64,000 nt of DNA from Marinobacter sp. LV10R510-11A (GTDB lineage: Bacteria; Pseudomonadota; Gammaproteobacteria; Pseudomonadales; Oleiphilaceae), in NCBI RefSeq assembly GCF_900215155.1, contig NZ_LT907980.1:1798001-1862000 (forward strand), read 5' to 3'. The notes beneath the pieces are model-generated. The model saw nothing but the letters and a program-made list of their open reading frames with translations. It was not told where the DNA came from and made no database searches. Made by a program: the position numbers and the translations under genes. The first letter of the stretch is position 1. Each line of letters begins with the position of its first letter. This document shows positions 48,619-60,554 of the stretch, piece by piece.

Positions 48619-48695
<77 letters not shown>

Positions 48696-48785: not shown

Positions 48786-49862
48786 CTATTCTGCTGAGAC
48801 CTCAACCCACCTTATTTCGTCGTGCCCTGAATCGTAATTGCTCGTCATCTTTGCGCTTGAATGGCCGGCAAGTTTCTGGGGATCTGCACCCTTGTCTCGG
48901 AGGTTCTTGATACCCAGTGCACGGATCTCGTGGAACGTTGGCCGCTCACCTTCCGGGGCTTTATCGAATAAGCCAGACTCATCCCGGGCTTCTGCAAATG
49001 CCCTGGTCAACATCTGTGGCTTAACCTGAGTCCAGTGATCCATGCCCGCCCTATCCTTCACCTTCCGTTCCGGTCGACGGTGCACCAGGTACGGACTGGC
49101 CATATCATCCCTGCAACGCTTGATCACTTTGTCCAGCCGCGGGCCAACCGCTATGGCCAGATAACCGGTATCGTACTTCTCGGTTTTCTCCTGGATGACG
49201 TAAAGCTTGCCATCGCGGATGTTCTCAAACTTCATACGGGCAACATCGCTCCTGCGCTGCAGCGTAATCAGGGCGAGGTCCATTGCATTCTGTGCCCATA
49301 GCGGACTCATTGTTTTGATCGTATCGTACTCATCTTGAGTTAGACGTTTCCGCGCTTTCTTTTCCTTCCGCTTCAACGTTGCCTCGGCTGGATTGTCCGC
49401 CCTGAGACCTCGACTGACAGCAACGCGGAACAGATCCACTGCAACCTGCCTTATCTGATTGGCCGTCCGCGGCGAATACTTCTCCAGAAGCTGTGCCAGA
49501 TCCTGAACACTTACATCTTCAGCAGCCACATCACCCATGGCAGCCTCAAGCTTACGAATCTGCACCTGGTACATCTGCAGGGTGCTGGCTTTGTACTCCC
49601 GCTCTGGAGCGATATTATCCATAAACCACTTGGCGTGCTGGCGGACAGTAATGTTACCGAGCACCTTTGCGACTAGATCGTTGTCAGGAATCAGCATTGT
49701 GTTCAGCTCTTTGGCCGCGGCAATAGCGTTCAACCGACTCACGCCCATGCCATGGAACTTACCGGTGACCGGGTGCCGGTACTGGTACGATTTCCCACCA
49801 TTGGCCGGATATAGATTATCCGGCAGTGGCTTATTGGCTTTGTTGCGCGGCCTCGGACTCAT
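48786..49862 (-). CDS. int: Phage integrase (tyrosine recombinase)
   Basis: This is a 358-residue tyrosine recombinase of the lambda type: an N-terminal arm-binding part (YPANGGKSYQYRHPVTGKF), a core-binding domain (about 75-170) and the catalytic domain with Arg in LQRRSDVARM (about 203-212), HEIRALGIKNL (about 312-322), GHSSAKMTSNY with the second His and nucleophile Tyr (about 335-345). It is oriented toward tRNA-Pro, as is usual when the tRNA 3' end is attB. Its ATG overlaps the stop of the Xis-like gene (ATGA). Confidence 0.95.
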   Translation of the reverse strand: MSPRPRNKANKPLPDNLYPANGGKSYQYRHPVTGKFHGMGVSRLNAIAAAKELNTMLIPDNDLVAKVLGNITVRQHAKWFMDNIAPEREYKASTLQMYQVQIRKLEAAMGDVAAEDVSVQDLAQLLEKYSPRTANQIRQVAVDLFRVAVSRGLRADNPAEATLKRKEKKARKRLTQDEYDTIKTMSPLWAQNAMDLALITLQRRSDVARMKFENIRDGKLYVIQEKTEKYDTGYLAIAVGPRLDKVIKRCRDDMASPYLVHRRPERKVKDRAGMDHWTQVKPQMLTRAFAEARDESGLFDKAPEGERPTFHEIRALGIKNLRDKGADPQKLAGHSSAKMTSNYDSGHDEIRWVEVSAE

Positions 49863-56330: not shown

Positions 56331-56720
56331 TTATGCGTAGTTGCAGCGAATTTGTGTGCGACCTATCCGGCTGGCGGTCACAGGCGGTCGGGTACCGTTC
56401 ACCGGGGAAGGCCGGCTTCTTAGGGCGGGCCCAGCGGAAAGCACCAACAGCGCCCAAGCCAGCATCCGGGCACGGAAAAGCCCCTGCATCCAACCTTGGC
56501 TGATGAGATCTACTCGACTGCTTGCGTGGAATTGATCTTTGGCTTCGTCCAGGTGCCAGCTAACGGTCTCTGGAGAGATGTGAAGTGCCCGCCCAATCTC
56601 TTTGGCGGTCATGCCGCGTGCGGCCCACATGACCACCTCGCCTCTGCGTGGTGGTAAAAGCGTGGTGTCCGCCAGCTCGACGAGCATTCTTGGATAAGTG
56701 GTTCTTGGTTTGCGGCTCAT
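56331..56720 (-). CDS. Phage LuxR-type HTH regulator
   Basis: This is a 129-residue protein with a GerE/LuxR helix-turn-helix: LPPRRGEVVMWAARGMTAKE and IGRALHISPETVSWHLDEAK (about 22-61). The C-terminal part is basic. It is the first gene of the leftward prophage operon, directly behind the operator-like palindromes at 56756-56797, so it is probably under repressor control and may itself regulate the operon. Confidence 0.75.
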   Translation of the reverse strand: MSRKPRTTYPRMLVELADTTLLPPRRGEVVMWAARGMTAKEIGRALHISPETVSWHLDEAKDQFHASSRVDLISQGWMQGLFRARMLAWALLVLSAGPALRSRPSPVNGTRPPVTASRIGRTQIRCNYA

Positions 56721-56940: not shown

Positions 56941-57028
56941 AAACGCCCGGTAGCTGGCACCCAACGCTTTACTTAGAGTTATAGATATTCGGCTTGGCCA
57001 TCGCAATTACTGTATGTACAATAAACAT

Positions 57029-57295
57029 ATGGAAATTGAATTCGACCCCGCCAAAGATGACATCAACCTTGCGAAGCACGAGGTGTCCTTGTCTGAGGCT
57101 GAAAACATTGAATGGGAAACGCTGTGGGCACGCCCAGATGGGCGAAGGGAATACGAAGAGCTGCGAGAGGTAGGCTTTGCTTATATCGGGCTAAGGCTCT
57201 ATTGCGTGGTCTATACCGATCGCGCAGAGGCACGCCGAATTATCAGCCTTCGTAAAGCCAATACACGGGAGATTAAACGCTATGCCGAAGCTTAA
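57029..57295 (+). CDS. brnT: BrnT family toxin
   Basis: This is an 88-residue RelE-fold ribonuclease-type toxin. [20 protein letters not shown] and [20 protein letters not shown] with [11 protein letters not shown] are the family pattern. An ATG five codons upstream is possible but the chosen one gives the standard start; neither has a clear ribosome-binding site. It overlaps brnA by 14 bp. BrnT inhibits translation and is bound by the DNA-binding antitoxin BrnA, which autoregulates the operon. Confidence 0.9.
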
Positions 57296-57578
57296 GCCAG
57301 GCACTATCTGGCCAACACATGAAGAAGACGCCGAGATCAACGCAGGCATTGCCGCCGATCCGGACACTTACGAGCTAACAGACGCTGAGTTTAAACGCTT
57401 GCGGCCGGTGGGAAGGCCCAAGGCCAAGGTAACCAAAGAGCGCATCACCATTCGCCTGTCACCGGAAGTGGTAGAGCAATTCCGCGCCACCGGTAGCGGC
57501 TGGCAGGGCCGAATGGATCGGGCGCTACAGGATTACCTTCGCAATCACAGCCAGTCTGATATTGAGCGGCTGGGGTGA
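57282..57578 (+). CDS. brnA: BrnA family antitoxin
   Basis: This is a 98-residue antitoxin: an acidic N-terminal part for BrnT binding ([19 protein letters not shown]) and a C-terminal ribbon-helix-helix-type segment [20 protein letters not shown] with [17 protein letters not shown]. It completes a standard toxin-first BrnTA operon. Confidence 0.9.
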
Positions 57579-57603: not shown

Positions 57604-57627
57604 AAAGCCCGCTCGATAGCGGGCTTT
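57604..57627. terminator. Bidirectional terminator between brnA and the SecB-like gene
   Basis: AAAGCCCGCT pairs perfectly with AGCGGGCTTT around CGAT. The A-rich flank on the left (GAAAAA) gives a U run in the leftward direction, so it ends the toxin-antitoxin-chaperone operon well and brnTA less so. Confidence 0.8.
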
Positions 57628-57634
57628 AAGACGA

Positions 57635-58066
57635 TTAATCATCTTTACTCGTTATAAAATCTATACCTTTTTGGCTAAAGTAACCTGTCGGGAGCGTAAT
57701 GGCTCCAAATGGAGCCTTTCCCGTAATCGTGTGAAGGTAATCCCTTGCTCCCGAATACAGAATTCTTGCAGCATTTACTACTAAGCTAGGATATGCATGC
57801 TCAATATTTGAGAGGGAGTCCCCGTCTTCTAGCTCGACTTTGAACACTCCAAACACTTCAATATCAAACTCGTATGGATCTTCTTCTGTTACATCATCCT
57901 TATTGGTGACATTAAGAGATACAGCGATCTCAATATCATCTTCATCATAGATATGACTGACCAAAGTTTTCACAACCGGTGGCCGATCTATTTCGCTACT
58001 AGCGTTATCTCTATTGGCCCTGCAGTACGTCTCAGGAACGGTATAAGAGGATAATTCAAGCTGCAT
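57635..58066 (-). CDS. SecB-like chaperone of a toxin-antitoxin-chaperone module
   Basis: This 143-residue protein is SecB-sized. The segment YEFDIEVFGVFKVE (about 64-77), YPSLVVNAARILYSGARDYL (about 91-110) and FGAITLPTGYF (about 118-128) follow the SecB pattern of beta strand, long helix and Pro-rich end. It is not the housekeeping secB: it sits as the last gene behind a HigB-like toxin and an XRE antitoxin. In TAC systems such a chaperone folds and protects the antitoxin. It starts 11 bp inside the antitoxin gene. Confidence 0.75.
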   Translation of the reverse strand: MQLELSSYTVPETYCRANRDNASSEIDRPPVVKTLVSHIYDEDDIEIAVSLNVTNKDDVTEEDPYEFDIEVFGVFKVELEDGDSLSNIEHAYPSLVVNAARILYSGARDYLHTITGKAPFGAITLPTGYFSQKGIDFITSKDD

Positions 58067-58484
58067 TTAACTCTTCGCCTTTTCCGTTAGTTTGGAGCCA
58101 CTGATAAGTGTCATCCATATCAAAAACCAAGTTTTTGAATACTGACTCGGACTTTCCTGGCTTGCCAGCTGCCTTCTTCTTTCTAGCTACACCAAACCAT
58201 GCGACACGTTCGTCGACCTCAGTAATATGGAAATGGATATGGCCACCAGTTGCGCGGGCGAGCTTGACCATGCTTTCAATCGTGAGGTTTTCGTCACCAC
58301 GCATAACCTTAGATATATACGCGGGACTTGAATCTATATGGTTAGCTAAATCTTTATTCTTCATGCCGAGTCTACGGACGCGCTGATTGAGAGCCTTCAC
58401 GAACTCAAGTTTCGCACTTTCAAACCAGTAGGTTTCTGAGCTGTGAATTTTCTCTTTCAGCTTTTTCAGCGCATTGATACCCAT
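58056..58484 (-). CDS. XRE-family (HigA-like) antitoxin
   Basis: This is a 142-residue protein. QRVRRLGMKNKDLANHIDSS and AYISKVMRGDENLTIESMVK (about 34-74) form a classic XRE helix-turn-helix, which would bind the operon promoter. The C-terminal region is long for a HigA and ends in SVFKNLVFDMDDTYQWLQTN, an aromatic/hydrophobic stretch that is a candidate chaperone-addiction segment. AGGAGG lies five bases before the ATG. Confidence 0.8.
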   Translation of the reverse strand: MGINALKKLKEKIHSSETYWFESAKLEFVKALNQRVRRLGMKNKDLANHIDSSPAYISKVMRGDENLTIESMVKLARATGGHIHFHITEVDERVAWFGVARKKKAAGKPGKSESVFKNLVFDMDDTYQWLQTNGKGEELNAA

Positions 58485-58496
58485 TAGAGCCTCCTA

Positions 58497-58934
58497 TTAG
58501 TCATTTTCCGGTAACTCAACAAATTCGAGCTGACCTGATGACAAGTACTCGTTACGAAGCCTGACAGCTTTTTTGACTTCCTTTTTGTCAGCCTTCGTCG
58601 TGCTTTTCAAAAAACCATGTGAACAGATCACAATTCTTTTTTCACTGGTATAAAAATAGAGAACCCGGAGATCCCCTTTCTTTATTTGATATATCTTGTT
58701 TTCCTGGTCGACAAAGTGAGACTGATCGGTTGTGAGGGCATCGCTCCCAGATACAGAAAACATCTCTATAAGCTTATAGAGACCGACAGCTGAACCGTGA
58801 TACTGCTTGCTATCTACGCACTCAGTCAGAAAGTCATTCAGCGAGCACTCCACTTTGCCCTTTCTGTCGGTAGCGGCCGCCGTTACTGTGTAGCGGTCAC
58901 TTTCAATCTCTATTACCTTGATTTTGTCGATCAC
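58497..58934 (-). CDS. HigB-like (Gp49/RelE superfamily) toxin
   Basis: This is a 145-residue protein whose C-terminal half has the phage Gp49/HigB pattern: YQIKKGDLRVLYFYTSEKR and VICSHGFLKSTTKADKKEV (about 83-121), then KAVRLRNEYL. The N-terminal part is longer than in minimal HigB. The start appears to be a GTG at 58934, without a strong Shine-Dalgarno, which may keep toxin levels low. The gene order toxin-antitoxin-chaperone and AT-rich composition differ from neighbouring phage genes. Confidence 0.8.
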   Translation of the reverse strand: MIDKIKVIEIESDRYTVTAAATDRKGKVECSLNDFLTECVDSKQYHGSAVGLYKLIEMFSVSGSDALTTDQSHFVDQENKIYQIKKGDLRVLYFYTSEKRIVICSHGFLKSTTKADKKEVKKAVRLRNEYLSSGQLEFVELPEND

Positions 58935-58952
58935 ATCTTAACTCATAGGTTA

Positions 58953-58970
58953 ACATTTTTCACAAAATGT
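58953..58970. promoter_or_regulatory. Inverted repeat upstream of the toxin gene, candidate antitoxin operator
   Basis: ACATTTT (58953-58959) and AAAATGT (58964-58970) form a perfect 7-bp palindrome with a 4-base centre, inside wider TTAAC/GTTAA flanks, 18 bp before the toxin start. The location fits autoregulation by the XRE antitoxin. Confidence 0.55.
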
Positions 58971-59669: not shown

Positions 59670-60554
59670 CTATCTCAGCACCGACCACCAAAACACTCGC
59701 CCGATGATCCGGATGTTCTCTTCAGCCACTCTCTGGGCGGAAAAGTCTTCTGGTTCATGCTCGATGGCGTTCTGGCTCACGATCTTGATGCCGCCACCTG
59801 GTCGACGGTGCAGATACTTCACGCGAAGCATGCCGTCATGATCGATCGCGTAGATCTCGCCGTCTCGAACGGTGGTGTCACCGGTATTCACACCAACACA
59901 GGTACCGTTCGGCATAACAGGATCCATGCTGTTGCCACGGACAAACGCACACGCTGCGTTCTCCTTCATGACACCTGCCCTGGACAGCGTAGATTTTGCA
60001 AAGCGGAGTTTCGCGCCACGGTTCTCGACTACTTCGGTCTGGCCTGCGCCTGCTGCCAGCTCTACTTCTCTGAACAGCGGCAATTCAACCTCGTCATCAT
60101 CCAGTGGTGTGTTGCTGTCCCAGGCATCCAGCCGGCCTACGAACTCCAGCTCATCGGTCTTGCCTTCGTTCGGGTGGCCAGCAACATCCTCTCTTTGCTC
60201 TGGAGACATCCGAGCCCACTGCTCGTCCATCTCCTTTGTGTGCTGCTTTTCCTCATACAACCGGACAACCTCTGAGTCGCTTAGGCTTTCTTGCCCTACA
60301 TCTCTGATTTCCTTCGCCTGCATAGCGTCAACCATTTTGAAAATATCGAGCTCATGCCCTTTTCCAGTTAAAAGCCATCTTGCCGCTACACCAAGTGCTT
60401 CAGCTAATTCCAGTATGTATCGAGGACGCTTGACCAAACCATCCTCAAGTTGCTGGATACTCTGCTGTTTTACGCCAGTTTTCTTGGCCAGCTCTTGCTG
60501 GGTGAGCCCTAGTTGTTTACGACACCTGAGCACTCTATCTTTAATTTCGTTCAT
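59670..60554 (-). CDS. CI-type phage repressor (XRE HTH plus S24 peptidase)
   Basis: This 294-residue protein has an N-terminal HTH ([19 protein letters not shown], about 14-32), a linker, and a LexA/CI C-terminal domain. The self-cleavage site is probably Ala-Gly in [10 protein letters not shown] (about 168-177); the catalytic Ser is in [13 protein letters not shown] (about 206-218) and Lys in [13 protein letters not shown]. It should keep the prophage silent and be inactivated by RecA after DNA damage. The start codon lies inside one of the operator-like palindromes, suggesting autoregulation. Confidence 0.93.

Follow-up and report, generated by a model that had tools for sequence, protein, structure and literature searches.

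A HigBAC-type toxin–antitoxin–chaperone operon with an operator common across its family, carried by a Marinobacter prophage

The window analysed here, a 64,000-nucleotide stretch of the Marinobacter sp. LV10R510-11A genome (contig NZ_LT907980.1, positions 1,798,001 to 1,862,000), carries three intact open reading frames (ORFs), all on the minus strand and spanning 57635–58934 in the ORF list, which encode a HigB-fold toxin, a HigA-type XRE antitoxin and a SecB-like protein. The leftward toxin, antitoxin and SecB-like set described in the first-pass annotation is thus confirmed. The features of this toxin–antitoxin–chaperone (TAC) operon and its surroundings, in window positions, are as follows.

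48651–48668, plus strand: left 18-bp attachment-site repeat, within tRNA-Pro (48619–48695); its other copy lies 45.2 kb away, at genome position 1891880
48786–49862, minus strand: prophage integrase, adjoining the left repeat
56331–56720, minus strand: LuxR/GerE-like gene (GerE, 2.6e-10), left edge of the slot
57014–57295, plus strand: BrnT toxin gene (BrnT_toxin, 4.5e-19), in the slot of the TAC
57282–57578, plus strand: BrnA antitoxin gene (BrnA_antitoxin, 5.3e-21), in the slot of the TAC
57604–57627, minus strand: terminator-like hairpin of 10 pairs, between the convergent TAC and brnTA
57635–58066, minus strand: SecB-like chaperone, ORF of 143 aa (SecB, 9.2e-4; SecB fold)
58056–58484, minus strand: HigA-type XRE antitoxin, ORF of 142 aa (HTH_3, 2.6e-7)
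58059–58220, minus strand: antitoxin C-terminal tail, residues 89–142, ending in -AA; putative chaperone-addiction region
58497–58934, minus strand: HigB-fold toxin, ORF of 145 aa with a GTG start
58938–58953: putative operator, conserved, TTAACCTATGAGTTAA on the minus strand, its end 4 nt ahead of the toxin start
58953–58970: second palindrome, with 7-bp arms and a 4-nt loop
59147–59623, minus strand: 158-aa protein between the TAC and cI, with a weak OB-fold match (tRNA_anti-like, 0.0046, under the cut-off)
59670–60554, minus strand: cI-type repressor (Peptidase_S24, HTH_3; phrog_4, 1.8e-50), right edge of the slot

The toxin and antitoxin genes are separated by 12 nt, and the antitoxin and SecB-like genes overlap by 11 nt. 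The operon is AT-rich against its surroundings, as had been noted earlier, with a GC content of 43.2% versus 53.5% in the remaining prophage part of the window; just 2 of 1254 sampled 1300-bp stretches have a GC content as low. The terminator described after the operon is present as a hairpin, but the number of such sites in the region shows no excess (2 versus 1.8 in shuffles). Promoter counts in a scan of the region were at shuffle level, and we therefore claim no promoter. NCBIfam, at its cut-offs, gave no name to the toxin, the antitoxin or the third protein.

The toxin matches Pfam Gp49 at 5.7e-7, exceeding the cut-off, and has a predicted HigB fold beginning near residue 14, which bears out its assignment as HigB/Gp49-like. 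R90 and K110 are invariant in 29 of 29 aligned toxins, and the pair has the HigBA arrangement, in which the gene for a HigB/RelE-fold toxin with its catalytic residues lies ahead of the gene for an HTH antitoxin. One additional strand, residues 5–12, precedes the fold. The extended N-terminus reported for this copy is therefore real; as most of the 29 relatives in the alignment have similar N-terminal segments, it is not peculiar to it.

The HTH_3 match of the antitoxin exceeds the Pfam cut-off, and its top PADLOC match is PDC-M64C (4.3e-10). Beyond residue 88 the protein continues for 54 residues, six of them aromatic, so that the long aromatic C-terminal tail of the earlier reading is indeed present. 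Ordinary HigA proteins in the compared loci are mostly 91–103 aa long, and the antitoxin has the extension beyond the HTH that marks TAC antitoxins. The tails of relatives are far more divergent than their HTH parts. The C-terminus reads ...ELNAA. Among TAC antitoxins 9 of 24 end in AA and 17 of 24 in A, versus 10 and 50, respectively, among 364 background ORFs no shorter than 200 aa (every long open frame in the loci, with overlapping stretches and possible non-genes among them) and 2 and 5 of 33 ordinary HigA proteins. None of the 24 TAC toxins or 24 TAC chaperones ends in AA, and one of each ends in A. The enrichment of AA ends in TAC antitoxins has a Fisher p of 1.7e-7 versus background and 0.004 versus ordinary HigA. 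HigA1 has a C-terminal Val-Ala (PMC8165232); such an end is an already-known TAC trait, and the -AA end found here is, by its sequence, ClpX-degron-like.

Three other antitoxins (P0012–P0014) are 62–66% identical to that of the window and differ in their C-terminal tails. A related toxin seems to be encoded on the contigs of two of them, P0013 and P0014, and none of the three is among the matches of the chaperone search. Partner exchange or loss is possible in these cases. A mirror-tree analysis of tail–chaperone covariation gave a partial r of 0.211 (p 0.0065) when a second TAC of the same genome was included and 0.067 (p 0.20) when it was left out; special tail–chaperone coevolution, unsupported in the latter form, was not retained.

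Against Pfam SecB the third protein scores under the cut-off, and a phmmer search with this protein alone against solved structures returned no SecB. A profile search with its family picks up SecB and Rv1957, and structure prediction, the check proposed in the first-pass annotation, gives a monomer with the SecB fold, for which the best solved matches are SecB and Rv1957, the chaperone of the mycobacterial TAC. A chance SecB look-alike is rejected, as both profile and fold searches rank SecB first. The protein is also set apart from export SecB, which combines a clear family score with a solitary gene, by its Pfam score and by its place inside a toxin–antitoxin operon; the genome's solitary SecB lies elsewhere (195 bits).

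The earlier reading had been made to depend on homologues of the three genes occurring together elsewhere, and this is what we found. A toxin-profile scan of genome contigs returned 10 loci, all 10 with the toxin–antitoxin–SecB-like order, which by their record titles come from Nitrosomonadales, Bowmanella, Pseudomonas (three), Methylococcales, Burkholderiales (two), Desulfuromonadales and a gammaproteobacterium. Ten toxin loci were found on viral contigs, and a SecB-like gene is present in all eight that continue past the antitoxin; L014 and L020 stop before any third gene, the third gene of L018 is cut by the contig end, and the set includes copies (L018/L019, and L021, which equals L010). 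Among 369 genomes of the class, including this one, four others have a toxin above 100 bits, each with a SecB-like gene, and one of these has probably been counted already, since the scores of L041 equal those of L013, probably from the same genome. By contrast, 0 of 39 ordinary HigB-like loci, taken from the scans of the order and the class, has a SecB-like third gene, although these loci are 2.0–3.3 kb long, so that a third gene past the contig end might be missed in a few. Some of the loci counted for linkage had also served to build the profiles used on them; L042–L044 and the loci found through the operator stayed outside. By toxin score, the second TAC (32 bits) does not stand apart from ordinary HigB (at most 44 bits).

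The family is sparsely distributed. A strong full-length toxin occurs in 1 of 390 genomes of the order, namely this one, and in none of 58 close genomes besides its own. Searches of 50,697 phage records gave no match to the 1.4-kb TAC DNA, to the chaperone or to the toxin of a Pseudomonas relative. Among 72,556 plasmid records there was no match to the same relative's toxin and one weak chaperone match, annotated as SecB, in Cupriavidus taiwanensis. A chaperone-pattern search of viral contigs yielded 74 stretches, of which 0 were confirmed.

A palindrome had been noted ahead of the toxin gene, and there are in fact two, at 58938–58953 and 58953–58970. The sequence TTAACCTATAGGTTAA or a close variant is found in 22 of 25 loci, beginning 17–31 nt ahead of the assumed start of the toxin, versus 0.155 expected from mononucleotide shuffles; as the motif was noticed before counting and some of the 25 upstream stretches are identical or nearly so (L010/L021, L018/L019 and L005/L006/L022), this expectation is no blind test. 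The three remaining stretches are those of L016, with one mismatch, L044, with a weaker palindrome, and L002, the second TAC, for which the toxin start is uncertain. Independent checks were provided by a whole-genome scan and a pattern search of viral contigs. A relaxed form of the operator has a single site in the 4.44-Mb genome, the one described here. The perfect 16-mer matched 25 viral contigs: in 7 a HigB of this TAC family follows directly, one of these being the contig of L022, and the other 18 carry no toxin of this family. Five of the six new operator-led toxin loci have a SecB-like gene, and the sixth, L082, has a different third ORF.

That locus (L082:11810–13038, on a viral contig) combines the same operator with HigB and a tailed HigA, and its third gene, of 109–116 aa, is not SecB-like and matched no Pfam family above its cut-off; the third partner may have been exchanged. 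At two other sites (L080:2197–2476 and L091:2967–3246) a perfect 16-bp operator lies beside a short HTH ORF that matches the HigA profile weakly (22 bits), and neither has a toxin of this TAC family. The exact 16-letter string was not found in open PMC papers. A related site is known from P. putida, in which MqsA binds TTAACCT GGA AGGTTAA, overlapping the toxin ribosome-binding site (PMC5422877). The half-sites TTAACCT...AGGTTAA are identical in the two systems and lie beside the toxin start in both, whereas the spacer is 2 bp here and 3 bp in P. putida mqsRA.

The same genome carries a second TAC-like operon (L072:7357–8949; C1, about 67.36–68.95 kb), with ORFs for a 226-aa toxin, a 153-aa HTH antitoxin and a 145-aa SecB-like protein. 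The toxin has diverged, matching no Pfam family and the toxin profile at 32 bits. Its SecB-like protein scores 0.0013 against SecB, under the cut-off, and shares 37% identity with the chaperone of the window across residues 61–132. Neighbours of the operon are tyrosine recombinases and an nSTAND3 protein of 777 aa that weakly matches Mrr_cat. A 2014 survey counted, among 1631 genomes, 2 that have two TAC or AC systems each (PMC4257090).

The window's TAC lies in a complete-looking 45.2-kb prophage inserted in tRNA-Pro. The integrase gene adjoins the left repeat, genes for the terminase, portal, head protease, major head protein and tape measure lie to the right, and the TAC itself is placed between cI and the LuxR-like gene. 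The 18-bp repeats, the phage structural genes and this cI-adjacent slot substantiate the lysogenic cargo position proposed earlier. The BrnT/BrnA pair (57014–57578) shares this slot and runs convergently to the TAC, and homologues of the 158-aa OB-fold-like protein lie close to cI in the related prophages L112 and L116. Elsewhere in the prophage, an 877-aa ORF (L070:7500–10133) combines, in a single frame, an N-terminal part matching tail-fibre PHROGs and a reverse-transcriptase domain (RVT_1, 7.6e-17).

A close cI is present in 9 of 124 genomes of the genus, including this one, and slot content was read in nine regions surrounding the other cI homologues. A LuxR-like homologue lies past a variable stretch beside cI in 7 of the 9, and none of the 9 contains a toxin, antitoxin or chaperone of the TAC family at E 1e-4. 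When ten slot proteins, picked by the analyst from the slots of seven related prophages, were scanned, four matched GmrSD_C above the cut-off, and these came from 4 of the 7 prophages (two in one genome). The GmrSD_C-type nuclease genes lie beside cI in L109, L110, L111 and L116. Thus, the TAC occupies a place that in several related prophages belongs to nuclease-like, possibly defence-type genes.

Compared by description, the closest likeness is to HigBAC of Escherichia coli C496, which has a HigB toxin, a HigA antitoxin and a SecB-like chaperone. In that system, said to have been described by Mets et al. in 2024 (Cell Host Microbe), a tail protein of phage lambda reportedly displaces the chaperone. 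It differs in its host and may differ in its trigger. Alignments with the Mycobacterium tuberculosis TAC (HigB1-HigA1-Rv1957) gave 12% and 16% identity; unlike that system, the window's TAC sits in a prophage, and its genome has a solitary SecB besides. The comparison with known TAC and CmdTAC proteins proposed in the first-pass annotation returned Rv1957 among the best fold matches and, for the chaperone, PADLOC PD-T4-9_C at 1.7e-4. PD-T4-9 was later named CmdTAC (PMC9519451), and its antitoxin CmdA ends in LAA (PMC11618068), resembling the -AA end found here. The CmdTAC toxin, however, is an ADP-ribosyltransferase, and the HigB fold of the window's toxin rules out membership. MqsRAC, a phage-defence TAC (PMC9519451), is likewise ruled out, as Pfam gives Gp49 and HTH_3 and no MqsR or MqsA; only the operator half-sites agree.

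With its toxin and antitoxin genes joined to a SecB-like gene in one operon, and on sequence a ClpX-type antitoxin end, the module is almost certainly a TAC, as first read; the SecB fold, the HigB fold and the recurring gene order support this. It is of a known kind, HigBAC, with an operator common across the family. We consider it more likely than not that the TAC is lysogenic cargo of the prophage in which a chaperone-held antitoxin releases the toxin upon phage infection. In the resting lysogen the antitoxin would act as repressor of the operon at the palindrome just ahead of the toxin gene, while the SecB-like chaperone would hold the antitoxin tail, maintain its folding and mask its C-terminal -AA from ClpXP, and the antitoxin so protected would keep the HigB mRNA nuclease neutralised. 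A structural protein of another phage may then compete for the chaperone and expose the tail, whereupon the antitoxin would be degraded, the toxin would cut ribosome-bound mRNA and phage production would halt. There are precedents for chaperone addiction (PMC5105189) and for a phage structural protein setting the toxin free (PMC11618068, PMC11980606). Gene content and order, the folds, the active-site positions, the operator sequence, the degron-like end, the prophage setting and the variable slot are observed here; chaperone addiction, antitoxin degradation, repression and the phage trigger are inferred by analogy.

Anti-phage defence is probably the main use of the TAC, by analogy with E. 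coli, in which TACs serve phage defence (PMC11618068, PMC9519451, PMC11980606). We count several observations against the preferred explanation: a slot adjacent to cI would suit a plain addiction module as well, L082 has an operator-led HigBA with no SecB-like third gene, the 50,697 phage records lack the chaperone and a close toxin relative, tail–chaperone covariation is unsupported when the second TAC is left out, and the Pfam SecB score and the phmmer search were, respectively, below the cut-off and null.

An unlikely alternative is that the TAC chiefly stabilises the prophage in the lysogen, phage protection being incidental. Its location inside a prophage, beside cI and next to a second toxin–antitoxin pair, BrnTA, would fit such a role, but GmrSD_C-type nuclease genes occupy the slot in four of the seven related prophages scanned and TAC-family genes are absent from all nine regions read, and thus the slot is not kept for addiction modules of the TAC family; known E. 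coli TACs, moreover, defend against phage (PMC9519451, PMC11618068). Distinctly less probable is a stress switch, put forward for the mycobacterial TAC (PMC8165232), in which export substrates or misfolded proteins draw the chaperone off and growth is slowed by the toxin during stress, not during phage infection. The chaperone does resemble export SecB, yet the genome already has a solitary SecB, and the patchy presence (1 of 390 genomes of the order) and prophage setting suit cargo over a core stress system. Finally, we give virtually no credence to a third gene without SecB kinship in an accidental grouping of three. The Pfam score and single-sequence phmmer search are compatible with it, but SecB comes first in the profile and fold searches and the gene order repeats across distant bacteria; taken together, the profile, fold and linkage results in our view already refute it.

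The DNA signature of operator followed by HigB located further TACs without recourse to protein similarity. The copy in the window shows a TAC within a temperate phage, in a slot that is variable and defence-like. With a HigA-type TAC antitoxin and MqsA having common operator half-sites, cross-regulation between toxin–antitoxin families becomes testable. As one genome holds two TAC-type operons, unlike each other, next to its one solitary SecB, chaperone specificity could be tested in one cell. More tentatively, and with only a modest chance of being right, the HigBA core and its TTAACCTATAGGTTAA operator may be a mobile warhead-and-promoter cassette that takes varied sensor partners, usually a SecB-like chaperone together with a fast-changing antitoxin tail and sometimes another third protein, as in L082; the window's prophage would thereby exclude competing phages via their structural proteins, ignoring its own.
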